The translations under genes were made by a program, and so were the position numbers. The notes under the pieces were generated by a model that was given only the letters and a program-made list of their open reading frames with translations, was not told the origin of the DNA and made no database searches. From a virus: 64,000 nucleotides of DNA. The DNA is taken from positions 186,001 to 250,000 of IMG/VR virus record IMGVR_UViG_3300011113_000805; one strand, written 5' to 3'. Positions within the stretch are counted from its first letter, which is position 1, and the number at the start of each line of letters is the position of its first letter. Shown here piece after piece: positions 23,600-41,270 of the stretch.

Positions 23600-24091
23600 C
23601 TATTTTCCGGACTGGAGGTGTTCAACCAGCCACTTAGCTTGGACTTCGTACGAAGTAGCCTCGGCAGCCCGAGCAGCCCGAGCAGCAGCTCCAGCAGCAC
23701 GAGCAGCCTCAGCAGCAGCCCAAGTAGCCCCAGCATCAGCAGCAGCAGCAGCCCAAGCAGCACGAGCAGCCCAAGCAGCAGCCCGAGCAACACGAGCAGC
23801 CCAAGCAGCAGCTTCCAGCTCCTCAGAAGTGATGCTCTTCTCATCCTCCAGCCACCGGTCCACCAAGGACAGGGCATGTGTCACACTCTGATCCGGCTCA
23901 CGTCCTGATCGAGCCAGTGCCTCACCGGCACACCATCGGGAAAATGACACCAGGTCCCGATGGGTGATGATACCAATGTGCTCCCGGCCTTGCAGGAGGA
24001 TGCAGTTGAGCTGGAGGTTTCGTGTCAGCTCTGCCTCAGACAGAGTCGTCTGCTCACCGGTGACGGGATCAACCAGGACGTACTGGGTCAT
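23600..24091 (-). CDS. Alanine-rich family protein, copy 1
   Basis: 163 residues. Family layout: residues 1-20 QYVLVDPVTGEQTTLSE; residues 25-60 a conserved block NLQLNCILLQGREHIGIITHRDLV; helix ALSLVDRWLEDEKSITSEELEAA; an Ala-rich helix with Trp/Arg at intervals (about 95-145); and the end KWLVEHLQSGK. The Ala-rich part resembles helical segments of some bacterial putative immunity proteins, but no function is established. Own class II promoter; the stop codon lies in an AAATAG palindrome. Confidence 0.8.
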   Translation of the reverse strand: MTQYVLVDPVTGEQTTLSEAELTRNLQLNCILLQGREHIGIITHRDLVSFSRWCAGEALARSGREPDQSVTHALSLVDRWLEDEKSITSEELEAAAWAARVARAAAWAARAAWAAAAADAGATWAAAEAARAAGAAARAARAAEATSYEVQAKWLVEHLQSGK

Positions 24092-24114
24092 GAGATATCT
24101 CCGTGATGAGATCT

Positions 24115-24142
24115 GTTATTACGGTGCCGGCACTTTGTACAG
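24115..24142 (-). promoter_or_regulatory. Class II phage promoter
   Basis: Minus strand CTGTAC, 16 bases with GTGCCGGCAC, AATAAC, AGATC; 24 bases before the ATG of copy 1. Confidence 0.7.
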
Positions 24143-24164
24143 GCACCGAGAGAAAATAGCTGAA

Positions 24165-24644
24165 CTATTTTCCGGACTGGAGGTGCTCCACAAGCCACTT
24201 GGCTTGGGTTTCATATGAAGCAGCCTCAACAGCCCAAGCAGCCCGAGCAGCAGACCGAGCAGCCCAAGCAGCATCAGCAGCCCAAGTAGCATCAGCTGCA
24301 GCCCAAGCAGCCCAAGCAACATCAGCAGCATCAGCAGCAGCAGCCTCAGCAGCCCCAGCAGCAGCTTCCAGCTCCTCAGGAGTAACACTCTGCTGGTCCT
24401 CCAGCCATCGATCGACCATGGTCAGAGCATGGATCGACCTCTGATCAGGCTCATCCACCAGCAGCGTCAGCATCTCACCGGCACACCACCGAGCAAATGC
24501 GACCAAGTCTCGGTGGGTGATGATGCCAATGTGCTCCCGGCCTTGCAGGAGCACGCAATTCTGTCTGAGGTTTCGTATCAGTTCGACCTCAGGCAGAATC
24601 GACTGCTCACCGGTGACGGGATCGATCAAAGTGTACTGGTGCAT
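24165..24644 (-). CDS. Alanine-rich family protein, copy 2
   Basis: 159 residues from ATG 24644. Conserved block NLRQNCVLLQGREHIGIITHRDLV, then VDRWLEDQQSVTPEELEAA, about 50 residues of Ala with periodic Trp/Asp, and QAKWLVEHLQSGK. Close paralog of copies 1 and 3-5, differing mainly in Ala-segment length and composition. Confidence 0.8.
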   Translation of the reverse strand: MHQYTLIDPVTGEQSILPEVELIRNLRQNCVLLQGREHIGIITHRDLVAFARWCAGEMLTLLVDEPDQRSIHALTMVDRWLEDQQSVTPEELEAAAGAAEAAAADAADVAWAAWAAADATWAADAAWAARSAARAAWAVEAASYETQAKWLVEHLQSGK

Positions 24645-24666
24645 GTCGAGCTCCGTGATGAGATCT

Positions 24667-24694
24667 GTTATTATGGCTAAGCCACTTTGTACAG
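24667..24694 (-). promoter_or_regulatory. Class II phage promoter
   Basis: Minus strand CTGTAC-N16-AATAAC in front of alanine-rich copy 2; the spacer palindrome is weakened (GTGGCTTAGCC). Confidence 0.7.
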
Positions 24695-24716
24695 GTCCTG
24701 GGAGCAAATAGTTGAA

Positions 24717-25196
24717 CTATTTTCCGGACTGGAGGTGTTCAACCAGCCACTGAGTTTGAACTTCATATGAAGTAGCCCTGGCAGCAGTCTGAGCAGTCCG
24801 AGCAGCCCAAACAGCAGCCTCAGCAGCCCGATCAGCAGCCATGGTAGTAGTCCAAGAAGCAGCCTCAGCAGCCCGATCAGCAGCCATGGTAGCAGTCCGA
24901 GCATCATAAGCAGCAGCTACCAGCTCCTCAGAAGTGACGCTCTTCTCGTTCTCCAGCCACCGGTCCACCAAGGACAGGGCATGTGTCACCTTCAGGTCAG
25001 GCTCATCCACCAGCAGCGTCAACGTCTCACCGGCACACCATCGAGCAAAGGCGACCAGGTCCCGGTGGGTGATGATGCCCAGATGCTCATTCCCTCGAAG
25101 AAGGATGCAGCTGAGCTGGAGGTTTCGGGTGAGCTCAAGCTCCGACAGAGTCGTCTGCTCACCGGTGACGGGATCGATCAAAGTGTACTGGTGCAT
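24717..25196 (-). CDS. Alanine-rich family protein, copy 3
   Basis: 159 residues from ATG 25196. Its middle contains two near-identical blocks TTMAADRAAEAA, visible as a direct duplication at the DNA level (24837-24900), showing recent in-frame expansion of the Ala-rich segment. N- and C-terminal domains are nearly identical to copy 2. Confidence 0.8.
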   Translation of the reverse strand: MHQYTLIDPVTGEQTTLSELELTRNLQLSCILLRGNEHLGIITHRDLVAFARWCAGETLTLLVDEPDLKVTHALSLVDRWLENEKSVTSEELVAAAYDARTATMAADRAAEAASWTTTMAADRAAEAAVWAARTAQTAARATSYEVQTQWLVEHLQSGK

Positions 25197-25218
25197 GTCA
25201 AGCTCCGTGATGAGATCT

Positions 25219-25246
25219 GTTATTATGGCTGAGCCACTTTGTACAG
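25219..25246 (-). promoter_or_regulatory. Class II phage promoter
   Basis: Minus strand CTGTAC-N16-AATAAC ahead of copy 3, almost identical to the element at 24667-24694. Confidence 0.7.
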
Positions 25247-25268
25247 GTCCTGGGAGCAAATAGTTGAA

Positions 25269-25745
25269 CTATTTTCCGGACTGGAGGTGCTCCACAAGCC
25301 ACTGAGCTTGAGACTCGTACAAAAGCCCACGACTCCCAGCATCCCAAGCAGCCCCGGCAGCAGCCCAAGCAGCAGCCCCAGCAGTCCGAGCAGCCTCAGC
25401 AGCCTCAGCAGCAGCCCGAGCAGCCCGAGCAGCCTGAGCAGCCCGAGCAGCAGCCCCAGCAGCAGCTTCCAGCTCCTCAGGTGTAACACTCTGCTGATCC
25501 TCAAGCCACTGGTCCACCAAGGACAGGGCATGTGTCACCTTCAGGTCAGGCTCATCCACCAGCAGCGTCAGCGTCTCACCGGCACACCATCGAGCAAAGG
25601 CGACCAGGTCCCGGTGGGTGATGATGCCCAGATGCTCATTCCCTCGAAGAAGGATGCAGCTGAGCTGGAGGTTTCGGGTGAGGTCGATCTCAGACAGAAA
25701 AGTTTGCTTACCGGTGACAGAATCAACCAAGGTGTACCGGGACAT
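25269..25745 (-). CDS. Alanine-rich family protein, copy 4
   Basis: 158 residues, starting MSRYTLVDSVTGKQTFLSE. The Ala segment is Trp-poor and ends GSRGLLYESQAQWLVEHLQSGK, a junction also found in copies at 37267 and 40221 (DRGLSYKSQAQW). This suggests exchange of tails between copies. Confidence 0.8.
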   Translation of the reverse strand: MSRYTLVDSVTGKQTFLSEIDLTRNLQLSCILLRGNEHLGIITHRDLVAFARWCAGETLTLLVDEPDLKVTHALSLVDQWLEDQQSVTPEELEAAAGAAARAAQAARAARAAAEAAEAARTAGAAAWAAAGAAWDAGSRGLLYESQAQWLVEHLQSGK

Positions 25746-25766
25746 GAGAACTCCGTGATGAGATCT

Positions 25767-25794
25767 GTTATTTCGGCTGAGTCGCTTTGTACAG
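25767..25794 (-). promoter_or_regulatory. Class II phage promoter
   Basis: Minus strand CTGTAC-N16-AATAAC ahead of copy 4; the spacer reads AAAGCGACTCAGCCGA. Confidence 0.7.
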
Positions 25795-25816
25795 GCGCCG
25801 ACGGAAAATAGCTGAA

Positions 25817-26350
25817 CTATTTTCCGGACTGGAGGTGCTGCTCAAACCACTGAGCTTGGACTTCGTATGAAGTAGCTCCGGCAGCAGCTCCAGCAGCCCG
25901 AGCAGCCCAAACAGCAGCCTCAGCAGCCCGATCAGCAGCCATGGTAGCAGCCCAAGAAGCAGTCTGAGCAGCAGCATGAGCAGCCCAAGCAGCAGTCTGA
26001 GCAGCAATATGAGCAGCCCAAGAAGCCCGAGCAGCAGCCCAAGCAGCCTGAGCAGCTGCTTCAGCAGCGTCTTTCAGCTCCTCATTGCTGAGGCTCCTCT
26101 CATCCTCCAGCCACCGGTCCACCAAGGACAGGGCATGTGTCACCTTCAGGTCAGGCTCATCCACCAGCAGCTTCAGCATCTCACCGGCACACCATCGAAT
26201 GAAGATGACCAGGTCCCGGTGGGTGATGATGCCCAGATGCTCATTCCCTCGAAGAAGGAGGTAGCCAATCTGGAGGTTTCGGGTGAGCTTAAGCTCCGAC
26301 AGAGTCCACTGCCGGCCGGTGGCAGGATCAATCAAAGTGTATTTAGGCAT
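25817..26350 (-). CDS. Alanine-rich family protein, copy 5
   Basis: 177 residues, one of the longest. The Ala segment holds repeated AAQTAAWAAHAAAQTASW units and the TMAADRAAEAAVWAARAA block shared with copy 3. The tail is variant (QAQWFEQHLQSGK). First gene of the 23.6-26.4 kb run in the direction of transcription. Confidence 0.8.
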   Translation of the reverse strand: MPKYTLIDPATGRQWTLSELKLTRNLQIGYLLLRGNEHLGIITHRDLVIFIRWCAGEMLKLLVDEPDLKVTHALSLVDRWLEDERSLSNEELKDAAEAAAQAAWAAARASWAAHIAAQTAAWAAHAAAQTASWAATMAADRAAEAAVWAARAAGAAAGATSYEVQAQWFEQHLQSGK

Positions 26351-26806: not shown

Positions 26807-26891
26807 TGGTAGCCCCAGCCGGACTCGAACCGGCACGCTCAATGAACAAGAGATTTTGAGTCTCTCGCGTCTTCCGTTCCGCCATGGGGCC
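26807..26891 (-). tRNA. tRNA-Leu (anticodon CAA)
   Basis: Class II tRNA with a long variable arm. Anticodon stem AGAGA/TCTCT with loop CTCAAAA, T arm GCCGG-TTCGAGT-CCGGC, discriminator A and encoded CCA. Position 1 pairs G-U with position 72. Confidence 0.9.
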
Positions 26892-26898
26892 AATGAAG

Positions 26899-26973
26899 TG
26901 GTGGGTCATCCGAGACTCGAACTCGGAACTAACGGATTAAGAGTCCGCTACTCTACCATTGAGTTAATGACCC
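26899..26973 (-). tRNA. tRNA-Lys (anticodon CTT)
   Basis: Cloverleaf with acceptor GGGTCAT, anticodon loop CTCTTAA, T loop TTCGAGT and encoded ACCA 3' end. Confidence 0.92.
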
Positions 26974-26978
26974 GAAGA

Positions 26979-27054
26979 TGGTGGGTTGTCTGGGGCTTGA
27001 ACCCAGGGCCTACGGATTAAAAGTCCGCTGCTCTACCGACTGAGCTAACAACCC
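26979..27054 (-). tRNA. tRNA-Lys (anticodon TTT)
   Basis: Acceptor GGGTTGT, D arm AGCTCAGTCGGTAGAGC, anticodon loop CTTTTAA, T loop TTCAAGC and encoded CCA. It lies next to the CTT isoacceptor, likely a tandem duplicate that diverged. Confidence 0.92.
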
Positions 27055-27058
27055 ATAA

Positions 27059-27146
27059 TGGAGGAAGCGGTGGGATTCGAACCCACGATCCCTTTCAGGA
27101 TGCCGGTTTTCAAGACCGGAGCCTTAAACCGCTCGGCCACGCTTCC
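27059..27146 (-). tRNA. tRNA-Ser (anticodon TGA)
   Basis: Class II tRNA. Acceptor GGAAGCG, anticodon stem CCGGT/ACCGG with loop CTTGAAA, long variable arm, T arm GTGGG-TTCGAAT-CCCAC and CCA. The discriminator base is U, whereas bacterial serine tRNAs usually have G. Confidence 0.9.
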
Positions 27147-27150
27147 AAGA

Positions 27151-27225
27151 TGGTACTCCCAACGGGAATCGAACCCGTGTTACCGGAGTGAAAATCCGGT
27201 GTCCTGACCGTTAGACGATGGGAGC
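27151..27225 (-). tRNA. tRNA-Glu (anticodon TTC)
   Basis: Anticodon stem CCGGA/TCCGG with loop TTTTCAC, T arm ACGGG-TTCGATT-CCCGT and encoded ACCA. Reads GAA and probably GAG. Confidence 0.92.
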
Positions 27226-27228
27226 GAA

Positions 27229-27302
27229 TGGTTGGGGTGGTAGGATTCGAACCCACATAGCCTGATCCAAAGTCAGGCGTCCTGCCGTTGGACGACACCC
27301 CA
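27229..27302 (-). tRNA. tRNA-Gln (anticodon TTG)
   Basis: Acceptor TGGGGTG, anticodon loop CTTTGGA, T loop TTCGAAT and encoded ACCA. Typical bacterial glutamine tRNA layout. Confidence 0.92.
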
Positions 27303-27319
27303 GTAATGAAAGAATGAAG

Positions 27320-27396
27320 TGGTGCTGAAGGTGGGAATCGAACCCACGGCCTGCGGTTTACAAGACCGCTGCTCTGGCCAACTGAGCTACTTCAGC
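27320..27396 (-). tRNA. tRNA-Thr (anticodon TGT)
   Basis: Acceptor GCTGAAG, anticodon stem GCGGT/ACCGC with loop CTTGTAA, T loop TTCGATT and encoded ACCA. Its first ten bases overlap the last codons of the gene at 27387-27638. Confidence 0.92.
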
Positions 27397-27638
27397 ATTT
27401 TCTCGGCCGTCGCCAGCGACTCATTCACATGAACCCAGCTGCCCTCCCGCAGGAGGATGACACAACCTCCGATAGGCCAATCCAACAGGGTCGGCGGCAA
27501 CATGTTCCAGCTGCTCACCCCTGGAGGAAGAGGGTAAGGAATGCAGGTGAGGATCTCATCCCGAGTAAAGACCCGTTCGGGATAAGTCCACCCGCCGCCG
27601 GGGCCAGGGGTAACAATGCTGAAGGTGAGCTCTTCCAC
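27387..27638 (-). CDS. SH3-like mini-protein inside the tRNA cluster
   Basis: 83 residues, GTG start. The C-terminal half (GGCVILLREGSWVHV) has the strand-turn-strand of the family. The stop codon lies inside tRNA-Thr, so mRNA and tRNA are on one transcript that must be processed. Class I promoter 23 bases upstream. Confidence 0.65.
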   Translation of the reverse strand: MEELTFSIVTPGPGGGWTYPERVFTRDEILTCIPYPLPPGVSSWNMLPPTLLDWPIGGCVILLREGSWVHVNESLATAEKMLK

Positions 27639-27660
27639 GTCGACGTCCTCAGGATTAGAA

Positions 27661-27687
27661 TATAATCACTTTGGTGATTTTGAACAG
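27661..27687 (-). promoter_or_regulatory. Class I phage promoter
   Basis: Minus strand CTGTTC, here 15 bases ending AAAGTG, then ATTATA. It should drive the mini-protein and the seven tRNAs downstream. Confidence 0.65.
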
Positions 27688-27720
27688 GCGGTGCCTGCAC
27701 TTTCTTCAACTTTTCTTGAG

Positions 27721-27796
27721 TGGCTCCGGCAACAGGACTCGAACCTGTGACCCGCGGATTAACAGTCCGCTGCTCTACCGACTGAGCTATGCCGGA
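27721..27796 (-). tRNA. tRNA-Asn (anticodon GTT)
   Basis: Acceptor TCCGGCA, anticodon stem GCGGA/TCCGC with loop CTGTTAA, T loop TTCGAGT, discriminator G and encoded CCA. Confidence 0.92.
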
Positions 27797-27801
27797 ATAA
27801 G

Positions 27802-27878
27802 TGGTCTCCTCGACAGGACTTGAACCTGTGACCCCCGCGTTAGGAATGCGGTGCTCTATCCAACTGAGCTACGAGGAG
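27802..27878 (-). tRNA. tRNA-Arg (anticodon CCT)
   Basis: Acceptor CTCCTCG, anticodon loop TTCCTAA with a mismatched A-C closing pair, T loop TTCAAGT and encoded ACCA. It reads AGG, a rare codon in many bacteria. Confidence 0.9.
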
Positions 27879-27918
27879 GGGTCGACCACCACCAGGCCCG
27901 GTGGTCATGGGCCACGAC

Positions 27919-29013
27919 TCACTTCTTCTTGTCGTTGATGGCCTGGGCGGCCTGGATGACGCTCATGATCTGGTCCTTCACCAGACCGTGAAACATCTTG
28001 ATGTTGTTGCTGTTGCCGCTGCTCATGACACCGCTGTGCAGCGCCATCTTGCACTCACCGGTGAGGATGTCGAAGAACTTCTTGAGGTTCCCCGCCTGGG
28101 CCAGGGTCCACTTGTTCTCCTTCGAGTGGTCCTTGATCTTTTCGATGATCGCCATCTTGCGCTCGGTGCTGAGCTCACCGATACGGGCCTCCACCTTGGA
28201 CCACCGGTTGAGGACGTCCTCCGCCGTGATGACGCTGCTGTAGTTCTTGACAAAGTCGACCAGGGCCGCGGAGGCCTCGACACCAACGAACCCCAGGGAG
28301 AGGGGGTAGAGGATGGCAGGAGGATTGCCACCGCATTCGGTGAGCTCGATGGCGGCCGCCTTCAGAGCACGGTCGAGCATCGCCCAGGAGCGCTGGCTGG
28401 GAGCCACCTTGCCGGGCTCCACGGCCTTGGTGGGGCGGAGGTGAGCAGGCTGCAGCCGAATGAAGTCGATCAGCAGTTCATTGATGTCGCCCTCGGTCTT
28501 CGCCCAAACGAGCCAGTCCTCCACCGAGGGCTTGAACTCGACCACCCAGAACCGGCTCAGGAGGGCCGGGTCCATCTCGGAGACGGTGTAGTCACCGCCC
28601 CAGTTCACTGCCGCAACCACCTGGGTGCCCGGGTGCAGGCGCTTGGGCTTGCCGTCGGGACCGGACCCGAGCTCACGATCCAGGACGATCTGGAACATGC
28701 TGTTCAGCACGCCGGGCAGGCCGCGGTTGAGCTCATCGAGGAAGAGGACGCAGGGCTCGTTGCAGGCCCGAACGTACCACGACGGCAGCGCGAAGGAGGC
28801 GACACCGGTTTCCTTCGTACGCTCGAGGTCGGGGTAGCCGACGACATCACCTTCGGACATCGTGGAGGCACGCACGTCGATGAGCTCGAGGCCGCGGCGG
28901 TGGGCGAGCTGGTGAACGAGCTGGGACTTGCCAACACCGTGGTCGCCGCGGATGAGCACAGCCTGTGCGGCCGGGAGTGCATTGAGGCAGGTGACGAGGG
29001 TCTTCGCGTCCAT
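27919..29013 (-). CDS. MoxR-type AAA+ ATPase
   Basis: 364 residues from ATG 29013; an upstream extension exists in frame but begins within the promoter leader. Walker A GDHGVGKSQ (about 23-31), Walker B VLFLDELNR (about 82-90), sensor-1 region VVAAVNWGG and a Ser/Arg-rich sensor-2 area follow the MoxR order. A C-terminal helical domain of about 120 residues completes it. MoxR ATPases act as chaperones with VWA-domain partners; the VWA/HEALH protein at 21726 is the likely partner. Confidence 0.9.
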   Translation of the reverse strand: MDAKTLVTCLNALPAAQAVLIRGDHGVGKSQLVHQLAHRRGLELIDVRASTMSEGDVVGYPDLERTKETGVASFALPSWYVRACNEPCVLFLDELNRGLPGVLNSMFQIVLDRELGSGPDGKPKRLHPGTQVVAAVNWGGDYTVSEMDPALLSRFWVVEFKPSVEDWLVWAKTEGDINELLIDFIRLQPAHLRPTKAVEPGKVAPSQRSWAMLDRALKAAAIELTECGGNPPAILYPLSLGFVGVEASAALVDFVKNYSSVITAEDVLNRWSKVEARIGELSTERKMAIIEKIKDHSKENKWTLAQAGNLKKFFDILTGECKMALHSGVMSSGNSNNIKMFHGLVKDQIMSVIQAAQAINDKKK

Positions 29014-29075
29014 GATGACGTCCTTTTCCTGAGGGTTTGTGGGGTTTCGGAACCATTCCGCCCCAACAAGATGAA

Positions 29076-29103
29076 TATAATCACTTTCGGTCAAGTTGAA
29101 CAG
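29076..29103 (-). promoter_or_regulatory. Class I phage promoter with conserved leader
   Basis: Minus strand CTGTTC-N16-ATTATA, then a leader of about 60 bases (to 29013) containing GGTTCCGAAACC. The same leader is duplicated at 30467-30537 before the RadA-like gene. Confidence 0.7.
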
Positions 29104-29125
29104 GTACCGGAGCACCTTTTTGCAA

Positions 29126-29428
29126 CTATTTTCCGATCAACTTGAAATGCCTGATGTGCAACTCGAGGATCTCGCCCTCGTACATGACCTTCACATACAC
29201 GTTGCGGAGGGCAAGGTTATCGGTGGCCACCATCCCCAGCCCGAAGATCCAGACCGTCGGCCCTTCGACAATGACGCCAATGGCGCCGCGACCCATGTGG
29301 GGAATCGAAACCAACGCGCCGGGAACCCAGGCTTTGTTGGTGATCGTCCGGTTCTGTCCAGGACCCTTCTGGTGAACCACCCGTTTCTTGGGCTGAATGG
29401 GCTTTTCACTCAGTGTGCGACGCTTCAT
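29126..29428 (-). CDS. SH3-like mini-protein with basic N-terminus
   Basis: 100 residues. A basic leader (MKRRTLSEKPIQPKKRVVHQK) precedes a KOW-like barrel: PGALVSIPHMGRGAIGVIVEG, VWIFGLG and VYVKVMYEGEILEL. The G-x-I-G-V-I turn is typical of nucleic-acid-binding KOW/SH3 barrels, so RNA or DNA binding is plausible. GGAG precedes the ATG. Confidence 0.7.
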   Translation of the reverse strand: MKRRTLSEKPIQPKKRVVHQKGPGQNRTITNKAWVPGALVSIPHMGRGAIGVIVEGPTVWIFGLGMVATDNLALRNVYVKVMYEGEILELHIRHFKLIGK

Positions 29429-29619
29429 CAGGGGCTCCTCGAATAGAAACGTATGCGATTTTTCGTCAGAGAGCAGGACATCTTGTGTCCACCGCGCGGA
29501 TATTGTTCAGATGCTCCCTCGCGCCGACCAGGACATCCTGGGCAGTCTTCGTGCTCAGGCCAGTCCTTGCCATCCGCCTGCCGGGTGGCCTTGTTGTCGA
29601 AGTCATCTTCGTCGTTCAT
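29428..29619 (-). CDS. Small hydrophilic protein, 63 aa
   Basis: Starts MNDEDDFDNKATRQADGKDW after GAGAGGAAT and a class II promoter. Three Cys (EDCPGCPGRR, MSCSL) are not in a clear zinc arrangement. Its stop meets the next ATG. Kept because of promoter, ribosome site and tight coupling. Confidence 0.6.
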   Translation of the reverse strand: MNDEDDFDNKATRQADGKDWPEHEDCPGCPGRREGASEQYPRGGHKMSCSLTKNRIRFYSRSP

Positions 29620-29641
29620 ATTCCTCTCCGCGATGATATCT

Positions 29642-29669
29642 GTTATTATGGTCGGAGGGTTTTGTACAG
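29642..29669 (-). promoter_or_regulatory. Class II phage promoter
   Basis: Minus strand CTGTAC-N16-AATAAC; upstream of the 29619 start. Confidence 0.7.
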
Positions 29670-29716
29670 GTCCGGGGACACCTTTTTTGAAGGAATTTTC
29701 CCCGGACCTGCACCGG

Positions 29717-30466
29717 TCAGGACTCCTCGGAAGCCGCCACCTCGAAGCCGTGACGGCCCAGGCTCAGCCAGCTGGTCCGACCGGTACCGCCGAAGCGGTT
29801 CTTGGTCACCTCGAACTTGCGATGACCGATGAGGGTCTTGTCCTTCTTCTCCCAGCCGAGGTGGATGTGGCAGTCGATCATGTGCTTCATCTTGTTGCTG
29901 CCGGCGAAGGTGCCGCCCTTCGTCACCTGGCCGATGGTGATGACGTTGGTGAAGTTCTCCTTCGCCCAGGTGGTGAGCTTCTCCAGGGAGCGCTCGGCGG
30001 TCCAGCAGGTGATCCGGCCGGTGTCGAACTTGCCATCATCCAGGCACTGGAGGGAGTCGACCATGAGGAAGAAGGGCTTGCCCTTGTTCTCGGGACGATT
30101 GCGGATGGCGTCCGCCGCCTCGATGAGCTTGTCGACGTGGGTCTCACCGCCGACGAGGAAGTTGGGGTCGATGCCGAGGCGGTCCACGGTGCGCTTCACC
30201 TGGAAGAGGCTCTCCTCCGCCGTGTTGAAGAGGACCACGCTGCCGTTCTCGGTGAGGCCGGAGGCCATCGTCAGGAGGGCCGTGGTCTTGCCGGCGCCGG
30301 GCTCGCCGGTGAACATCGTCACCATCGACGGGGTGAACCCCTCGCCACCGAGGCCCTCATCGATCCACTCGATGCCGGAGAGGTGACGCTTCAGGAGCTC
30401 CATCGGCACGCGAACGTCGTTGATGTTGGTACCAACCGCGAAGGTGTCGGAGAACGAGATACGCAT
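29717..30466 (-). CDS. RadA/Sms-like RecA-fold ATPase
   Basis: 249 residues. Walker A GEPGAGKTT (about 54-62), Walker B FFLMVDSLQ (about 128-136) and KNRFGGTGRTSW (about 219-230), which contains the KNRFG motif characteristic of RadA. It lacks the N-terminal zinc finger and C-terminal Lon-like domain of bacterial RadA, leaving a minimal motor. Likely role: branch migration or recombination on phage DNA. Preceded by a long conserved leader and a class I promoter. Confidence 0.9.
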   Translation of the reverse strand: MRISFSDTFAVGTNINDVRVPMELLKRHLSGIEWIDEGLGGEGFTPSMVTMFTGEPGAGKTTALLTMASGLTENGSVVLFNTAEESLFQVKRTVDRLGIDPNFLVGGETHVDKLIEAADAIRNRPENKGKPFFLMVDSLQCLDDGKFDTGRITCWTAERSLEKLTTWAKENFTNVITIGQVTKGGTFAGSNKMKHMIDCHIHLGWEKKDKTLIGHRKFEVTKNRFGGTGRTSWLSLGRHGFEVAASEES

Positions 30467-30531
30467 GTGTATGATGTCCTTTTCCTGAGGGTTTGTGGGG
30501 TTCCGGAACCATTCCGCCCCAACAAGATGAA

Positions 30532-30559
30532 TATAATCACTTTCGGGTCAGTGGGACAG
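30532..30559 (-). promoter_or_regulatory. Class I phage promoter with conserved leader
   Basis: Minus strand CTGTCC-N16-ATTATA followed by a leader of about 65 bases with the palindrome GGTTCCGGAACC. Leader and second box are nearly identical to those at 29014-29081. Confidence 0.7.
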
Positions 30560-30612
30560 GTCTCCGGAGCACCTTTTTGCACATTTTTGTGCAGTGCTCC
30601 GGAGATAGCGTG

Positions 30613-31318: not shown

Positions 31319-31837
31319 CTATTTTCCGGACTGGAGATGCTCGACCCACCACTGGGCCTGGGCTTCATATGAAGTGTAATCCCGAGAAACCTGAGAAGTA
31401 GCCATGGCTGCATTTGAAGCCCCGTCACCATACACAGCTGCACGCTGCGCGGCAGCCTGGGCAGTCCAAGTGGCAGTTCGGGCAGCAACAAAAGCAACCA
31501 GTGGCGCAGCATCAGTAATAGCAGGAGCAGCAGCCCAAGCAGCAGCACGAGCAGCCGCTTCCAGCTCCTCAGAAGTGACGCTCTTCTCATCTTCAAGCCA
31601 CCGGTCCACCAAGGACAATGCATGGGCCACCCTCTGATTAGGCTCGCCTTTCAATCGAGCCAGCGTCTCATTGGTGCACCATCGAGCGAAGAGAACTAAG
31701 TCTCGGTGAGTGACGATACCGAGGTGCTCCTGGTCTCGGAAGAGAATACAGTTGAGCCTGATATTTTGGGTAAGCTCAAGCTCCGACAGCGTGTGCTGCT
31801 CGCCGGTGACAGGATCGATCAGGGTGTACCGGGCCAT
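31319..31837 (-). CDS. Alanine-rich family protein, copy 6
   Basis: 172 residues from ATG 31837. The family block (NIRLNCILFRDQEHLGIVTHRDLVLFARWC) and VDRWLEDEKSVTSEELEAAARAA are intact. The middle is less regular (AITDAAPLVAFVAARTATWTAQ...) and ends with RDYTSYEAQAQWWVEHLQSGK. A more diverged copy located 5 kb from the first run. Confidence 0.8.
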   Translation of the reverse strand: MARYTLIDPVTGEQHTLSELELTQNIRLNCILFRDQEHLGIVTHRDLVLFARWCTNETLARLKGEPNQRVAHALSLVDRWLEDEKSVTSEELEAAARAAAWAAAPAITDAAPLVAFVAARTATWTAQAAAQRAAVYGDGASNAAMATSQVSRDYTSYEAQAQWWVEHLQSGK

Positions 31838-33720: not shown

Positions 33721-33729
33721 ATGCCTTGC

Positions 33730-34451: not shown

Positions 34452-34474
34452 TTGGGTATCGCATCCTTTAAAGG

Positions 34475-34710
34475 ATCTATCCAGAGCGGGGGTCGAAGTC
34501 AATGATTTTTCTATCCCGCCGAGTAGGTTATCATCAGTGATCACTGTGTCACATTGTGCCGGATCGAATGAAAGTATCTATCCAGAGCGGGGGTCGGAGT
34601 CAATGATTTTTCTATCCCGGGGGCCCTAGGATTCTGGTGGATCGCTGTGTCACATTGTGCCGGATCGAATGAAAGTATCTATCCGGAGCGGGGGTCGGAG
34701 TCAATCATCC
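34475..34710. repeat. 101-bp tandem repeat, about 2.3 copies
   Basis: Copies begin at 34475, 34576 and 34677. Conserved parts are ATCTATCC-GAGCGGGGGTCG-AGTCAATGATTTTTCTATCCCG and TGTGTCACATTGTGCCGG; the stretch between them differs, and the second copy carries GGGGGCCCTAGG there. The third copy is truncated and runs into the end of the 34701 gene. Confidence 0.85.
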
Positions 34711-35051
34711 TCTGAAGGGAGCTCCCGGATATCATTGGCATCGATAAGAAGGTATCGGGGCGCGCCATCAACCATTACCCATGCTTTAATTCCTGGCATG
34801 GGAGTACTCCCGGGTGGCATGCCCATTGCTGATGTGAATGTTTCTCCATGGGCCTGAGATCTCAATGGTGGATGATTCTGTCTTTCAGGTGTATCTTCAC
34901 CTAGCCATATGGCATACCGGCTCACAGTATCATCAAATCCGCCATTGGGCCAGAACCAGAAGATCTGACCTCGAATCTCGAAAACGTCACCGGTCTTAAG
35001 ATTTGCAAGGGGGCTCGGGCTCTTGTTCTTGTGCATGATCTTATCGGCCAT
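34701..35051 (-). CDS. SH3-like mini-protein, 116 aa
   Basis: LKTGDVFEIRGQIFWFWPNGGFDDTVSRYAIWLGED matches the order of the GRGWD subfamily (basic strand, W-x-G-G-x-D, hydrophobic strand). A Pro/Met-rich loop leads to AWVMVDGAPRYLLI and an acidic end. AAGGATG precedes the ATG. Confidence 0.7.
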   Translation of the reverse strand: MADKIMHKNKSPSPLANLKTGDVFEIRGQIFWFWPNGGFDDTVSRYAIWLGEDTPERQNHPPLRSQAHGETFTSAMGMPPGSTPMPGIKAWVMVDGAPRYLLIDANDIRELPSEDD

Positions 35052-36707: not shown

Positions 36708-37193
36708 TTATTGACCGGACTGGAGGTGTTCAACCAGCCACTGAGCTTGGGCTTCATATGAAACAGCCCAAGTAGCACGAGCAGCCCAAGTAGCATGAAC
36801 AGTAGCCCGAGCAACATCAGAAGCAGCCCAAGCAGCCCGAGCAGCAGCCCAAGCAGTAGCCCGAGCAGCAGCCCGAGCAGTAGCCCCAGCATCCCAAGCA
36901 TCAAAAGCAGCAGCTACCAGCTCCTCAGAAGTGATGCTCTTCTCATTCTCCAGCCACCGGTCCACCAAGGACAGGGCATGTGTCACAGTGTGATCCGGTT
37001 CACATTTCAGTCGAGCCAAAATCTTACCAGCGCACCACCGAGTGAAGATGACTAGGTCCCGGTGGGTGATGATTCCCAAATGCTCCCGGCCTTGAAGAAG
37101 AACGCAATTGAGCTGAAGGTTTTGGGTGAGCTCTGCCTCAAACAGAGTCGTCTGCCGGCCGGTGACCGGATCAATCAATGTGTATTGGGCCAC
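36708..37193 (-). CDS. Alanine-rich family protein, copy 8
   Basis: 161 residues: QYTLIDPVTGRQTTLFE, NLQLNCVLLQGREHLGIITHRDLVIFTRWC, VDRWLENEKSITSEELVAA, Ala segment with AWDAGATARAAARATAWAAARAAWAA, tail QAQWLVEHLQSGQ. The AFDAWDAGA motif is shared with copy 14 at 40779. Confidence 0.8.
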   Translation of the reverse strand: MAQYTLIDPVTGRQTTLFEAELTQNLQLNCVLLQGREHLGIITHRDLVIFTRWCAGKILARLKCEPDHTVTHALSLVDRWLENEKSITSEELVAAAFDAWDAGATARAAARATAWAAARAAWAASDVARATVHATWAARATWAVSYEAQAQWLVEHLQSGQ

Positions 37194-37216
37194 GTCAAAT
37201 CTCCGTGATGAGATCT

Positions 37217-37244
37217 GTTATTTCAGCACCGGCACTTTGTACAA
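37217..37244 (-). promoter_or_regulatory. Class II phage promoter
   Basis: Minus strand TTGTAC-N16-AATAAC ahead of copy 8; the first box starts with T. Confidence 0.65.
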
Positions 37245-37266
37245 GCGCCGAGAGAAAATAGCTGAA

Positions 37267-37752
37267 CTATTTTCCGGACTGAAGGTGTTCAACCAGCCAC
37301 TGAGCCTGAGACTTGTAAGAAAGCCCACGATCCTCAGCAGACCGAGCAACATCAGCAGCAACCCAAATAGCCCGAGCAGCCCGAGCAGCAGCCCAAGCAG
37401 CATCAGCAGCAGCCCAAATAGCCCGAGCAGCGTCAGCAGCATCAACAGCAGCCCAAGCAACCTCAGCGACGGCTTCCAGCTCCTCAGGAGTAACTCTCTT
37501 TTCATCCTCCAGCCACCGATCGACCAGGGTCAAGGCATACTGTGCCTCAGGAGTCGATGTGCCCTTCGCTCGAGCAATTGCCTCCATGGCACACCACCGA
37601 GCAAAGGCGACCAAGTCTCGGTGGGTGATGATACCAATGTGCTCCCGGCCTTGCAGGAGGATGTAGTTAGGAGCGAGGTTTTGTGTCAGCTCGACCTCAG
37701 ACAGAGTCGTCTGCTGGCCGGTAATAGGATCGATCAGTGTGTACAGGTGCAT
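37267..37752 (-). CDS. Alanine-rich family protein, copy 9
   Basis: 161 residues from ATG 37752: HLYTLIDPITGQQTTLSE, LAPNYILLQGREHIGIITHRDLV, then ALTLVDRWLEDEKRVTPEELEAVAEVAWAAVDAADAARAIWAA. The tail SAEDRGLSYKSQAQWLVEHLQSGK is nearly identical to copy 13, implying gene conversion between them. Confidence 0.8.
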   Translation of the reverse strand: MHLYTLIDPITGQQTTLSEVELTQNLAPNYILLQGREHIGIITHRDLVAFARWCAMEAIARAKGTSTPEAQYALTLVDRWLEDEKRVTPEELEAVAEVAWAAVDAADAARAIWAAADAAWAAARAARAIWVAADVARSAEDRGLSYKSQAQWLVEHLQSGK

Positions 37753-37774
37753 GTCGAGCTCCGTAATGAGATCT

Positions 37775-37802
37775 GTTATTACAGTGCCGGCACTTTGTAC
37801 AG
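37775..37802 (-). promoter_or_regulatory. Class II phage promoter
   Basis: Minus strand CTGTAC-N16-AATAAC with the GTGCCGGCAC spacer palindrome; ahead of copy 9. Confidence 0.7.
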
Positions 37803-37825
37803 GCACCGCGAGCAAATAGTCGAAA

Positions 37826-38329
37826 CTATTTTTCGGACCGCAGATGCTCCACCAGCCACTGAGCTTGGACTTCGTACGAAGCAGTCTGAGTAGCCCGAGT
37901 AACCCAAGCAGTCCGAGCAGCAGCCCGAGTAGCCCAAGCAACAGCCTCAGCAGCAGCCCAAGCAGCCCCAGCAACAGCCTCAGTAGTAGCTCCAGCAGCC
38001 CAAGCAACAGCCTCAGCAGCCTGAGCAGCCCCAGCAGCCCGAGCAGCAGCTTCCAGCTCCTCAGGAGTAACACTCTGCTGGTCCTCCAGCCACCGGTCCA
38101 CCAAGGACAGGGCATGTGTCACCTTCAGGTCAGGCTCATCCACCAGTCGAGCCAGCATCTTACCAGCGCACCACCGAGCAAAGGCGACCAAGTCTCGGCG
38201 GGTGATGATGCCAATGTGCTTCCTATCTTGAAGAAGAATGCAATTGAGCTGAAGGTTTCGTGTCAGCTCTGCCTCAGACAGAGTCGTCTGCTGGCCGGTG
38301 GCAGGATCGATCAGTGTGTATTGGGCCAT
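37826..38329 (-). CDS. Alanine-rich family protein, copy 10
   Basis: 167 residues. Standard N-terminal domain with a variant loop (LQDRKHIGIITRRDLV, the invariant His before RDLV replaced by Arg). Ala segment rich in Thr and Val (AWATRAAARTAWVTRATQTA). Tail HLRSEK, as in copy 14 and the remnant at 39578. Confidence 0.8.
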   Translation of the reverse strand: MAQYTLIDPATGQQTTLSEAELTRNLQLNCILLQDRKHIGIITRRDLVAFARWCAGKMLARLVDEPDLKVTHALSLVDRWLEDQQSVTPEELEAAARAAGAAQAAEAVAWAAGATTEAVAGAAWAAAEAVAWATRAAARTAWVTRATQTASYEVQAQWLVEHLRSEK

Positions 38330-38352
38330 GTCAAATCTCCGTGATGAGACCT

Positions 38353-38380
38353 GTTATTTCAGTACCGGCACTTTGTACAG
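38353..38380 (-). promoter_or_regulatory. Class II phage promoter
   Basis: Minus strand CTGTAC-N16-AATAAC, then AGGTC; ahead of copy 10. Confidence 0.7.
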
Positions 38381-38403
38381 GTCCTGGGAGCAAATAGTCG
38401 AAA

Positions 38404-38946
38404 CTATTTTCCGGACTGGAGGTGTTCAACCAGCCAACATGCTTGGGCTTCATATGAAGCAATCTCAGTAGCCTCAGCAGCCCAAGCAGCCCGAGCAGCA
38501 GCCCAAGCAGCCTGAGCAGCAAACCGAGCAGCCTCAGCAGCAGCCCAAGCAGCCTCAACAGCCCAAGCAGCCCGAGCAGCAGCCCAAGCAGCCCCAGCAA
38601 CAGCCTGAGCGGCAGTCCAAGCAGCAGCCTCAGCAGTCCGAGCAGCCCAAGCAGCATCAGCAGCAGCTTTCAGCTCCTCAGGAGTAACACTCTGCTGATC
38701 CTCCAGCCACTGGTCGACCATGGTCAGAGTATGTGTCACCTTCAGGTCAGGCTCATCCACCAGTCGAGCCAGCATCTTACCAGCGCACCACCGAGCAAAG
38801 GCGACCAAGTCTCGATGGGTGATGATGCCAATGTGCTCCCCATCTCGAAGGAGGATGCAGCCAATCTGGAGGTTTCGGGTGAGCTCTACCTCAGACAGAG
38901 TCGTCTGCCGGCCGGTGGCAGGATCGATCAGTGTGTATTGGGCCAT
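38404..38946 (-). CDS. Alanine-rich family protein, copy 11 (longest)
   Basis: 180 residues. The Ala segment is about 70 residues with repeating AAWAAARAAWAVEAAWAAAEAARFAAQ units. Otherwise standard: LLRDGEHIGIITHRDLV, VDQWLEDQQSVTPEELKAA and CWLVEHLQSGK. The longest expansion in the family. Confidence 0.8.
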   Translation of the reverse strand: MAQYTLIDPATGRQTTLSEVELTRNLQIGCILLRDGEHIGIITHRDLVAFARWCAGKMLARLVDEPDLKVTHTLTMVDQWLEDQQSVTPEELKAAADAAWAARTAEAAAWTAAQAVAGAAWAAARAAWAVEAAWAAAEAARFAAQAAWAAARAAWAAEATEIASYEAQACWLVEHLQSGK

Positions 38947-38969
38947 GTCAAATCTCCGTGATGAGACCT

Positions 38970-38997
38970 GTTATTTCAGTACCGGCACTTTGTACAG
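38970..38997 (-). promoter_or_regulatory. Class II phage promoter
   Basis: Minus strand CTGTAC-N16-AATAAC, identical in spacer to the element at 38353-38380; ahead of copy 11. Confidence 0.7.
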
Positions 38998-39019
38998 GTC
39001 CCGGGAGCAAATAGCTGAA

Positions 39020-39505
39020 CTATTTTCCGGACTGGAGGTGCTCAACAAACGTTTGTGCTTGAGCTTCATAAGTGATGATAGCATGATAATCAAGTGACCA
39101 GGCTATTTCAGCAATAATCTCCAAGGCCCAATTAGCATTGGCAATAACCCGCACCGGAGAAGCAATAATCCAATCCGGTGACCATATAGAAGTCTCACCA
39201 TTGGTGATCACATATCCTGCAATGAAGTCAAGTTGTTCACAGGACAGGCTATTTGGATCCTCTAACCATTGATCGGCTAGCTGTATAGCATACAAAGAAT
39301 CTGGTTCCGGTAGTTCGATCATCCGATTCTTTATCACATCTGCACACCGTCGAGCGAAGACGACCAAGTCTCTATATGTAACGACACCAATATGGTTATT
39401 CCCTTGAAGAAGAATGCAATTAAGCATAAGATTTTGCAATAGCTCGGTTTTAGGTACAGTTTTGCTAAAGCCTGTGAAAGGATTGATTAGAGTGTAATGG
39501 ATCAT
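39020..39505 (-). CDS. Alanine-rich family relative with low alanine, copy 12
   Basis: 161 residues: HYTLINPFTGFSKTVPK, HIGVVTYRDLVVFARRC, LADQWLEDPNSLSCEQLDFIAG and EAQAQTFVEHLQSGK are all in register. The middle (VITNGETSIWSPDWIIASPVRV...) is a normal mixed sequence of similar length. The DNA here is AT-richer than its neighbours. Best evidence that the middle is a folded domain that became Ala-rich in the other copies, or the reverse. Confidence 0.8.
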   Translation of the reverse strand: MIHYTLINPFTGFSKTVPKTELLQNLMLNCILLQGNNHIGVVTYRDLVVFARRCADVIKNRMIELPEPDSLYAIQLADQWLEDPNSLSCEQLDFIAGYVITNGETSIWSPDWIIASPVRVIANANWALEIIAEIAWSLDYHAIITYEAQAQTFVEHLQSGK

Positions 39506-39526
39506 AGGAATTCCATGATGAGATCT

Positions 39527-39554
39527 GTTATTACAGTGCCGGCACTTTGTACAG
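39527..39554 (-). promoter_or_regulatory. Class II phage promoter
   Basis: Minus strand CTGTAC-N16-AATAAC with the GTGCCGGCAC palindrome; ahead of copy 12. Confidence 0.7.
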
Positions 39555-39577
39555 GCACCGCGAGCAAATAGTCGAAA

Positions 39578-39717
39578 CTATTTTTCGGACCGCAGATGCT
39601 CCACCAGCCACTGAGCTTGAGACTTGTTGTGCTCCTCATCTCGAAGGAGGATGCAATCCTGCCTGAGGTTTCGTGTCAGCTCGACCTTGGACAGGTCGCC
39701 CACCGGCCGGGTCAGGC
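39578..39717 (-). pseudogene. Alanine-rich family remnant
   Basis: In one frame: RPVGDLSKVELTRNLRQDC, then ILLRDEEH, followed directly by NKSQAQWLVEHLRSEK and a TAG stop. N-terminal and C-terminal family ends are joined, and the THRDLV block, the WLED helix and the Ala segment are deleted. Its 5' end is replaced by the nucleotidyltransferase gene at 39712, pointing to an insertion or recombination event. Confidence 0.7.
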
Positions 39718-40131
39718 CACCCTCTTCGATCCGCCCTTCTTGGGGGCAACCGGGCCGCGGAAGACCAGGGTGTTGACCACTCCCAAGTACCCGATCGGCT
39801 CCCCCTCAGCAGCCTTCTGCATCGCCTCGGAGGCTACCTCGTCGAGGCCTTCGGACCCTGGCACGGAGAATGCCACGTCCACGTCAGAGTCGTCACGGAA
39901 CCTGTTCCTCTCAAGAACGGAGCCGATGATCCACACGGACACCTCCTCCGCTGGGAGGTCGAGGACCTCCGCGGCCAGTTCCTTGAGGGAGGGTGCGGCG
40001 CCGGCCACGGCGCGGATGGCATCCTTTCTGTACGCGTCGAGGTCGGGGTCTTGGGAGGCAAGGACCTCGTTGAGGGAATGTGTCACTTCTTCACGGATGA
40101 TAGACTTGAGCTTGGATAACTTTATCTTCAT
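39712..40131 (-). CDS. Tagged minimal nucleotidyltransferase
   Basis: 139 residues from ATG 40131. Tag MKIKLSKLKSIIREEVTHSLNEV with the L-N-E site. The body has the polymerase-beta-like minimal nucleotidyltransferase pattern: VWIIGSVLERNRFRDDSDVDVAF (about 70-92), giving GS and the D-x-D metal ligands. Such domains transfer NMP groups to protein, antibiotic or RNA substrates. GC-rich and embedded in an alanine-rich family remnant, so probably a late arrival. Inferred role: injected AMP/NMP-transferase. Confidence 0.75.
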   Translation of the reverse strand: MKIKLSKLKSIIREEVTHSLNEVLASQDPDLDAYRKDAIRAVAGAAPSLKELAAEVLDLPAEEVSVWIIGSVLERNRFRDDSDVDVAFSVPGSEGLDEVASEAMQKAAEGEPIGYLGVVNTLVFRGPVAPKKGGSKRVA

Positions 40132-40220
40132 GGGCAATAAGTATGTCTGCCGCCGAGAAACCCATTAAAGAATAAAAGCGGGTCAAGTCGTGCGGGCTGT
40201 TTGGAGCAACTTTTGTATCT

Positions 40221-40703
40221 TTATTGACCAGACTTCAGGTGTTCCACAAACCACTGTGCCTGAGACTTGTAAGAAAGCCCACGATCCTCAGCAGACCGAG
40301 CAACATCAGCAGCAGCCTCAGCAGCGTCAGCAGCATCAACAGCAGCCCAAATAGCCTCAGCAGCAGCCCAAGCAGCCCGAGCAGCAGCCTCAGCACCAGC
40401 CCGAGCAGCAGCCTTAGCAGCGTCTTTCAACTCCTCAGAAGTGATGCTTAGCTCATCATCCAGCCACTGGTCGACCATGGTCAGAGCATGCGTCACCTTC
40501 AGGTCAGGCTCATCCACCAGTCGAGCCAGCATCTTACCAGCGCACCACCTAGCAAAGGCGACCAAGTCTCGGTGGGTGATGATGCCAATGTGCTCCCCAT
40601 CTCGAAGAAGGATGCAGTTGAGCTGGAGGTTTCGTGTCAGCTCGACCTCAGACAGAGTCGTCTGCCAGCCGGTGGCAGGATCAATCAAAACATAGTCAGG
40701 CAT
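40221..40703 (-). CDS. Alanine-rich family protein, copy 13
   Basis: 160 residues: DYVLIDPATGWQTTLSE, LLRDGEHIGIITHRDLV, VDQWLDDELSITSEELKDAAKAAARAGAEAAARAAWAA, tail EDRGLSYKSQAQWFVEHLKSGQ. The last third matches copy 9 and the first third matches copy 11, a mosaic. Confidence 0.8.
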   Translation of the reverse strand: MPDYVLIDPATGWQTTLSEVELTRNLQLNCILLRDGEHIGIITHRDLVAFARWCAGKMLARLVDEPDLKVTHALTMVDQWLDDELSITSEELKDAAKAAARAGAEAAARAAWAAAEAIWAAVDAADAAEAAADVARSAEDRGLSYKSQAQWFVEHLKSGQ

Positions 40704-40727
40704 GTCCAGGACTCCGTGATGAGATCT

Positions 40728-40755
40728 GTTATTTCGGCTGAGTCGCTTTGTACAG
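40728..40755 (-). promoter_or_regulatory. Class II phage promoter
   Basis: Minus strand CTGTAC-N16-AATAAC with the spacer of the 25767 element; ahead of copy 13. Confidence 0.7.
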
Positions 40756-40778
40756 GCACCGCGAGCAAATAGTCGAAA

Positions 40779-41270
40779 CTATTTTTCGGACCGCAGATGC
40801 TCCACCAGCCAACGTGCTTGGGCTTCATATGAAGCAATCTCAGCAGCAATCTCGACAGCAGCCCAAGTAGCATGAGCAGCGGCCTGAGCAGCCGTGGTAG
40901 CAGCCCAAGCAGCCCGAGCAGCAGCCCAAGCAGTAGCCCGAGCAGCAGCCCGAGCAGCAGCCCCAGCATCCCAAGCATCAAAAGCAGCAGCTTCCAGCTC
41001 CTCATTGCTGACGCTCTGTTGGTCCTCCAACCACCGGTCGACCAGGATCAAGGCATACTGCGTCTCAGGAGCAGGTGTGCCCTTCACTCGAGCCAGTGTC
41101 TCAACTGCTAGCCATCGAACAAAGACAACCAGATCCCTATGGGTAACAATGCCAATATGCTCATTCTCTCGAGCAAGAATGTCATTGCTGGCTATTTTTC
41201 GTGTTAGATCATGCTCTTGTACAATTTTGTTCATTCCCGTAATGGGATTAATTAGTGTATACTCTGTCAT
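40779..41270 (-). CDS. Alanine-rich family protein, copy 14
   Basis: 163 residues, the last of the run. Diverged N-terminus (EYTLINPITGMNKIVQEHDLTRKIASNDILARENEHIGIVTHRDLV), Ala segment like copy 8 (AFDAWDAGAAARAAARATAW) and tail HLRSEK like copy 10. The promoter is not class II: TTGTAA-N18-TATAAT lies upstream at about 41285-41320. Confidence 0.8.
   Translation of the reverse strand: MTEYTLINPITGMNKIVQEHDLTRKIASNDILARENEHIGIVTHRDLVVFVRWLAVETLARVKGTPAPETQYALILVDRWLEDQQSVSNEELEAAAFDAWDAGAAARAAARATAWAAARAAWAATTAAQAAAHATWAAVEIAAEIASYEAQARWLVEHLRSEK

Follow-up and report, generated by a model that had tools for sequence, protein, structure and literature searches.

Phages carry single inhibitors of host defences, and for most Imm5-like proteins "immunity" is itself a prediction. 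The homogeneous polyimmunity loci of bacteria consist of many tandem paralogues of one immunity type, located on the same strand and separated by short gaps (Zhang et al. 2012, PMC3482391). They contain no interrupting toxin genes and are probably expressed as one polycistronic message (PMC3482391). The immunity listed for Imm5 is directed against DYW deaminases and CdiA-type toxins (PMC3482391), and the all-helical immunity protein SsdAI covers the active site of the toxin (PMC7901873).

We analysed a window of 64,000 nucleotides from a T4-like virus record of 257 kb, which contains 15 intact paralogues and one internally deleted remnant. The features are as follows (window coordinates).

17954..18469, minus strand: most divergent family member, 171 aa; middle not Ala-rich, 5' module present
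23600..24091, minus strand: run A family member, 163 aa
24092..24141, minus strand: example of the 5' module, TGTACAAAG-N12-AATAACAGATCTCATCACGGAG, upstream of 23600
24165..24644, minus strand: run A family member, 159 aa
24717..25196, minus strand: run A family member, 159 aa; 45-nt in-frame tandem duplication in the array
25269..25745, minus strand: run A family member, 158 aa
25817..26350, minus strand: run A family member, 177 aa; conversion-like tract in common with 37826
31319..31837, minus strand: middle-pair family member, 172 aa
31912..32376, minus strand: middle-pair family member, 154 aa
36708..37193, minus strand: run B family member, 161 aa; GTG start, 59 identical array bases in common with 40779
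37267..37752, minus strand: run B family member, 161 aa
37826..38329, minus strand: run B family member, 167 aa
38404..38946, minus strand: run B family member, 180 aa; longest array, model 1
39020..39505, minus strand: run B family member, 161 aa; Ala-poor middle, model 2 (pLDDT 90, pTM 0.86)
39575..39720, minus strand: remnant of a sixteenth copy, about residue 38 fused to the tail by an internal deletion; start lost at the end of ORF 39712-40137
40221..40703, minus strand: run B family member, 160 aa
40779..41270, minus strand: run B family member, 163 aa; first gene of the run when read along the minus strand, no 5' module, divergent N-domain

The original prediction had described a family of fifteen genes with common N- and C-terminal domains. 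All 15 were found on the minus strand where they had been placed, and they could be aligned end to end, with 17 invariant columns and pairwise identities of 25-79% to the 38404 copy; conserved start codons led to corrected coordinates for five of them (24165-24644, 24717-25196, 31319-31837, 31912-32376 and 37267-37752). The count of fifteen is right for the intact copies but overlooked the remnant, whose fragment at window 39629-39697 was the only further trace of the family when all 257 kb of the record were searched. The genes are grouped on the same strand into runs of five (A) and seven (B) and a middle pair, with intergenic gaps of 71-75 nt in the runs, except for a single gap of 715 nt that houses the remnant. 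In each protein, a small beta-beta-alpha-beta-beta N-domain is followed by helices, by a helical, Ala-rich tract that can expand, and by a tail that is conserved. With pI values of 4.6-6.0, every copy is acidic, which makes a DNA-binding or histone-like role unlikely. We regarded NCBIfam hits, such as that to acetyl-CoA synthase delta, as compositional, and rejected CBS-domain hits to the THRD motif at E-values of about 0.1 or worse.

The Ala-rich middle is a diversified and shuffled DNA triplet-repeat array. In 13 copies, the middle contains 40-62% Ala over 48-73 residues, and the two relatives that had been singled out as lacking Ala enrichment, 17954 and 39020, have 6% and 15%, respectively. 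GCT accounts for 92% of the Ala codons in the middle, as opposed to 27% genome-wide, and most of the Trp, Arg and Gly residues are encoded by NGG. Translation of this GCT/NGG triplet array largely accounts for the Ala/Trp/Arg composition. The in-frame duplication already noticed in 24717 is a 45-nt unit with 35 of 36 compared bases identical. Proteins of several unrelated phages likewise have an Ala-rich part encoded by a GCT codon array, so that repeat formation in the DNA shapes the composition no less than a protein motif does. This would explain, in a form open to testing, why so many phages encode Ala-rich "putative immunity proteins"; literature searches on Ala-rich or paralogous phage families found nothing useful.

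Selection acts differently along the protein. Purifying selection is evident in the N-domain (dN/dS ~0.29), and the tail is constrained (dN/dS 0.15), with a median dS among copies near 1. In the array, pN/pS exceeds 1, a value that misregister in the repeats may inflate, and the Ala-rich tract is free of purifying selection. The copies are also mosaic, with segments exchanged between them, such as a conversion-like tract in 25817 and 37826 and 59 identical array bases in 36708 and 40779. Diversification by duplication and exchange between copies, as originally proposed, is borne out; the N-domain, by contrast, is conserved and not diversifying. The suggestion that the proteins are antigens found no support.

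Nearly every copy had also been credited with its own promoter, which is partly right. A conserved module, TGTACAAAG-N12-AATAACAGATCtCATcacGGAG, precedes 14 of the 15 genes, its terminal ACAG lying 18-22 nt upstream of the start codon, but the same module is found upstream of at least six other, unrelated ORFs; it is a putative promoter. The region holds 20 copies of the module, compared with none in 100 first-order resamplings of the region. Fourteen family genes have retained the start, the ribosome site and the module, the exception being 40779, whose upstream sequence differs and where a TTGTAA-18-TATAAT-like match was read by eye. Considered as an RNA element, the module yielded no consensus structure, and this reading was rejected. 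In other viruses, single matches to the module in each of 23 contigs were taken as chance.

The helical part of the family is a divergent Imm5-like domain, as indicated by an array-free profile chain, profile-profile comparison and the top fold matches. No family member reached the Pfam cut-off of 25 bits for Imm5_like (PF21805) in the whole record, the best having an E-value of 0.0054. Among 4,733 viral ORFs, an array-free profile of the family helices matched GCT-array proteins only: L167 (4e-6), L155 (8e-5) and L189 (6e-4). Array-free L155 in turn matched the Imm5_like protein L154 at 9e-4, as well as L161, L152 and L185 (1e-25 to 1e-8); L154 lies above the Pfam cut-off, as do L156, L160, L170 and L181. 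Profile-profile comparison of the family with the Imm5-like set gave a probability of 97% (E 1e-11) with the array and 56% (hhalign, E 1.6e-5) without it. The reverse array-free search with the Imm5-like set against the ORFs of this genome returned nothing, which weakens the forward result without cancelling it, and the relation to Imm5_like is for this reason only distant. The chain from the family through L155 to L154, together with the array-free hhalign comparison, points to homology of the helical part with accepted Imm5_like proteins independent of Ala composition.

Predicted structures may agree with this assignment. For the models of both 38404 and 39020, the top viral Foldseek match was an Imm-5-like phage protein (prob 0.97/0.93, E 0.12), with E-values of 0.1 or worse for the Foldseek matches. 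Against the PDB, DUF416 ranked first for both; next came the immunity protein Tsi6 or chain B of the SsdA-SsdAI toxin-immunity complex. DUF416 reached fold Z values of 10.2/9.8 and 9.2/8.7 (rmsd 2.8-3.6 over 124-130 residues), clearly above the next matches for model 2, although helical bundles may attain Z values of 9-10 through arrangement alone, and the family had no Pfam DUF416 match. The likeness to bacterial putative immunity proteins that had been noted at the outset holds for the helical part on profile and fold evidence. The accompanying anti-defence interpretation may be drawn from the immunity-like fold only.

We consider it about evenly balanced whether this phage locus corresponds to the homogeneous polyimmunity loci of bacteria, with proteins that block toxins or effectors. 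In favour are the profile and fold results, the tandem layout, the intact ORFs with their constrained N-domain, the mosaicism and the pN/pS of the array, whereas the sub-threshold Pfam scores, the empty reverse search, fold Z values within reach of helical bundles and the separate 5' modules weigh against it. The gene set resembles a reservoir of variable proteins that would block toxins, and we infer toxin neutralization by the family. The proteins would bind to enzymes that act as toxins or effectors and block them, the candidate targets being abortive-infection or toxin-antitoxin effectors of the host, or toxins of competitors. The N-domain and tail could hold the scaffold, while recombination in the array would alter the length and surface of the helices and might let the set cover a changing range of targets. 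It is possible, albeit doubtful, that the triplet array serves as a DNA-level diversification device, in which in-frame recombination within and between copies would remodel the helical surfaces while the scaffold stays fixed, providing a self-renewing inhibitor repertoire without a dedicated mutator enzyme; the same device would recur in unrelated phages with other N-domains.

The repeats could also have multiplied for their own sake. Unequal recombination at the arrays and common flanks might amplify repeat-rich genes of which most copies are useless to the phage, and the uniform 71-75-nt gaps with their repeated flanks, the occurrence of the array as a DNA repeat in unrelated phages, the one wrecked copy and the Ala-rich tract free of purifying selection all fit such neutral or selfish amplification. 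However, all but one of the 16 copies are intact ORFs, their N-domain and tail are constrained at a median dS near 1, and 14 have kept the start, ribosome site and module; we regard this explanation as unlikely. Slightly harder to sustain is a role in the phage's own programme, with the paralogues acting as scaffold, assembly or regulatory factors in which several subunits are nearly identical, and with their immunity-like helices being no more than a convenient bundle. The conserved N-domain and the regional 5' module shared with unrelated genes would suit it, but the middle and length vary too much for a single assembly role, and the family lacks the capsid-targeting-like N-terminus that neighbouring genes have. 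The family was also absent from 40 viral records whose terminase is related, mostly fragments, which speaks against such a role as well.

Very improbable is self-immunity, whereby the set would guard the infected cell from the phage's own multicopy putative effectors (YGAQAVVYHGT...GAMYGKGLY). Several paralogues of these occur elsewhere in the record (G000 815, 181405, 254095, 255357), but the effector reading was made by eye, neither Pfam nor PHROGs places them in a family of known function, and their genes are not interleaved with the immunity-like family.

If the polyimmunity reading is true, this phage would counter varied abortive-infection toxins with a set of 15 immunity-like genes whose middle recombines. 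The 15-copy expansion and the N-domain appear to be new, without a claim to a new fold for the latter. An N-domain-only profile had zero matches among the 4,733 viral ORFs, and close relatives were found neither in viral-contig pattern scans with 39020, the family alignment, 31912 and 17954, nor in a genome-contig pattern scan with the N-domain, nor by tblastn of phages. The Imm5_like (PF21805)/Imm5 (PF14423) proteins, including the five viral ones above the cut-off, may match the family in fold and share the helical order RD-L..FA.WCA...L....P-D.....A........T.EEL, after which come a helical, Ala-rich tract coded by GCT and a short tail. The family differs in its WLED motif, where Imm5_like has RPR.AIEAA, and in its other N-domain, NGG-flavoured array and fifteen copies. 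DUF416 (3f7c, 2q9r) and DUF6931 (PA2107, 3kaw), the latter a Foldseek match with weak Pfam hits, show no significant sequence match to the family and are single genes, not sets. Proteins of phrog_18326 and phrog_21347 (Sashavirus, Salmonella phage 9NA, Shewanella phage 1/4, Vibrio phages) combine an N-domain, a FACDCA helix, a GCT array and a tail, and family members match phrog_18326 from residue 45 onward (E to 4e-7). Neither the array-free nor the array-only half matched by itself, hhalign of the family against the phrog_21347-type set gave no match, and these proteins have another N-domain, an NNT-flavoured array and a single match per searched record.

Tandem relatives on other viral contigs are L167/L190 (records G041, G042), L187 and L170, with 2-5 copies as opposed to 15. 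L167, which has HIELVKRWLDDPDSVTTEEL plus array, is the best array-free match, but its genes are shorter (80-149 aa) and in most cases have no N-domain at all; the relation to L187 and L170 is more distant. Like the homogeneous polyimmunity loci, the family comprises more than four tandem same-strand paralogues with short gaps, and its putative immunity type is taken from the Imm5-like relation. No toxin families were recognised among the scanned neighbours, several intervening ORFs belonging to no known family. The same strand and short gaps would suit a polycistronic message, yet 14 of the 15 genes have their own 5' module. Such a phage set would be organized like a bacterial polyimmunity locus, from which it differs in residing in a phage genome, in its Imm5-like type, in its internal array and in having one 5' module per gene.

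Alignment of all copies showed 15 family genes, all on the minus strand and with a common domain order, which bears out the fifteen-member family with common N- and C-terminal domains put forward in the original prediction. An N-domain of about 43 residues (consensus M..YTLIDP.TG....LSE.ELT.NL...CILL.G.EHIGIITHRD) is followed by a helical stretch (LV.FARWCA...L.......PD....HAL.LVDRWLED..SVT.EEL), then by the middle, which in 13 of the 15 genes is rich in Ala, and last by a tail (SYE.QAQWLVEHLQSGK). The window spans bases 186001-250000 of the virus record, which is 257,178 bases long and contained no further copies in a whole-record search. The record encodes a T4-type terminase that shares 41% identity with the terminase of Flavobacterium phage immuto. 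The genes, named here by their first window coordinate, are laid out as follows.

17954, minus strand: lone divergent family copy
23600-26350, minus strand: run of five family genes
31319-32376, minus strand: pair of family genes
36708-41270, minus strand: run of seven family genes
39575-39720, minus strand: remnant of a sixteenth copy, in which an internal deletion fuses EEH to the tail

Gaps within runs measure 71-75 nt. The sole exception, of 715 nt, contains the remnant and a nucleotidyltransferase-like ORF (39712-40137; weak Pfam NTP_transf_2 match, E 0.025); the remnant has no start, the loss lying at its junction with the end of that ORF.

GCT accounts for 369 of 399 Ala codons (92%) in the middle, against 38% in the rest of the same genes and 27% in the long ORFs of the genome. 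Within the 13 Ala-rich copies, Arg is encoded by CGG in 40 of 47 cases (6% in the genome) and Gly by GGG in 13 of 20 (7%), while Thr, Val, Ser and Asp are mainly ACT, GTT, TCT and GAT, each a single step from GCT. The tract is therefore a diversified GCT array with interspersed NGG and NAG codons. The predicted Ala/Trp/Arg helix is the translation of this array; the in-frame duplication claimed for copy 24717 exists as a 45-nt tandem duplication. The same feature in another flavour, with TAT, GAT and CGT interspersed, occurs in phages with quite different N-domains, where GCT supplies 56/56 Ala codons in Sashavirus, 69/69 in 9NA, 40/42 in Vibrio 2.044 and 45/47 in Caulobacter phage Cr30. Ala-rich tracts of unrelated phage proteins (L118, L119, L017 and L018) are almost pure GCT arrays with these interspersed triplets; for L119 1824-1897 (Vibrio phage 2.044.O) the public record labels the array 'CRISPR spacers', evidently a misannotated repeat.

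Diversification, as originally proposed, fits the array and the exchange between copies but not the flanking domains, where median dN/dS is low (0.29 across the N-terminal 100 columns, 0.15 across the tail). Array pN/pS was at least 1.5 in 14 of 14 best gapless pairs (pooled 2.3), a value which repeat misregister can inflate and which is thus more safely read as absent constraint than as positive selection. A GENECONV-like permutation test detected conversion-like tracts, in copies lying as far as about 12 kb from each other (25817/37826, global p 0.002); on silent sites alone, only the pair 37267/40779 survived Bonferroni correction (p 2e-4). The copies are mosaics: the N-domain of 40779 has at most 66% DNA identity to any other copy, its middle and that of 36708 share 59 identical bases, and its tail is nearest to 37826.

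Direct Pfam matches of the helical part were weak (Imm5_like, E 0.0054; DUF6931, E 0.018), and by score it is not an Imm5_like member. Searching viral contigs with array DNA and reading their ORFs yielded bridging proteins, several of which exceed the Imm5_like cut-off. The array-free helix profile matched, among 4,733 ORFs, only L167 (four tandem genes), L155 and L189; array-free L155 matched L161 (1e-25), L152 and L185 (about 1e-9) and the Imm5_like protein L154 (9e-4). In profile-profile comparison the probability was 97% (E 1e-11) when the array was included and 56% (E 1.6e-5) when it was left out; the reverse array-free search gave no match. These profile results support the likeness to bacterial putative immunity proteins, and the helical part is probably a divergent Imm5-like domain.

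The predicted structures of 38404, with the longest array (mean pLDDT 84; five models span 63 to 84), and of the Ala-poor 39020 (pLDDT 90, pTM 0.86) both consist of beta-beta-alpha-beta-beta followed by about six helices, the short helix being weaker in the latter. For both, the viral protein with the best structural match was Imm-5-like (prob 0.97 and 0.93, but E 0.12). In VIA-align, DUF416 led the list for each model (Z 10.2 and 9.8 for 38404, 9.2 and 8.7 for 39020). Next came 7jtu chain B of the SsdA-SsdAI complex (Z 8.9) or Tsi6 (Z 5.7), with the DUF416 rows of 39020 3 units clear of the rest. Helical bundles may reach Z values of this size through arrangement only. From its all-helical match, 7jtu chain B would be the immunity protein.

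Tandem relatives occur on other viral contigs: G041 has five, L187 has three GCT-array genes and L170 has two. They indicate that tandem growth of such genes is recurrent, and the 15-copy phage is an extreme case. The family N-domain was not found outside this phage in any search, including 4,733 viral ORFs, and the collections searched contained no near relatives of the phage. The L181 protein at 8673-9377 is a fusion of DUF7666 with an Imm5-like array domain, and L162, L172, L183 and L188 look similar by eye, suggesting an exchangeable N-domain in these proteins.

One 5' module, CCTGTACAAAG-N12-AATAACAGATCtCATcacGGAG, precedes 14 of the 15 genes, with 18-22 nt between its final ACAG and the start codon. 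The region holds 20 copies at one mismatch or fewer against 0 in 100 resamplings, and at three mismatches the rest of the record adds only one. A search for conserved RNA structure in the module found none. The module may act as the promoter predicted for nearly every copy, and its presence upstream of unrelated small ORFs (19448, 20703, 21368, 29428 and others) argues that it marks a regional gene set rather than the Ala-rich family alone.

Adjoining the family is a second divergent, tandem paralogous family of ORFs of about 95-125 aa (18538-20290, 32495-35051; consensus LK..GGLI.L...L.W..GR....ICVLL...IDG.P.W), of which ORF 32847 ends in VTHRDILEL, resembling THRDLV of the Ala-rich family. 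Between the family runs lie a DUF2201 metallopeptidase/VWA-like protein, an AAA_5 (MoxR-like) ATPase and a KaiC-like ATPase (21726-23072, 27919-29013, 29717-30466), and nine tRNA genes (26807-27878). The N-termini of many proteins resemble one another in being basic/amphipathic leaders (M.ITES.LRR.VR.E., MTHLLRSLIRETLLLEE; window 15206-16961, 41337-43512; whole record 815-2011, 181405-185173, 254095-256475), which may be akin to the capsid-targeting leaders of T4-like phages. Multicopy proteins with YGAQAVVYHGT...GAMYGKGLY (whole record 815-2011, 181405-182730, 254095-255360, 255357-256475) by eye resemble ADP-ribosyltransferases, and matched no family of known function in Pfam or PHROGs. A DNA-polymerase-like gene (whole record 26916-31742) seems, by eye only, to be split, its second ORF beginning with an intein-like stretch, HQTYDLEVDHPDHQFYLANGLLTSN.

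PMC3482391 lists Imm5 with the families that give immunity to DYW deaminases and to toxins of the CdiA type. The deaminase toxin SsdA has its active site blocked by SsdAI, an immunity protein built entirely of helices (PMC7901873). By analogy with these roles and with the layout of polyimmunity loci, the likeliest role of the family is that of a set of inhibitors: its proteins, if expressed, would bind and inhibit host or competitor toxins to the benefit of the phage, and array recombination would change their binding surface. In homogeneous polyimmunity loci, many genes of a single immunity type follow one another in tandem, without toxins (PMC3482391); the phage locus fits this layout, with no toxin family recognised among the neighbours scanned.
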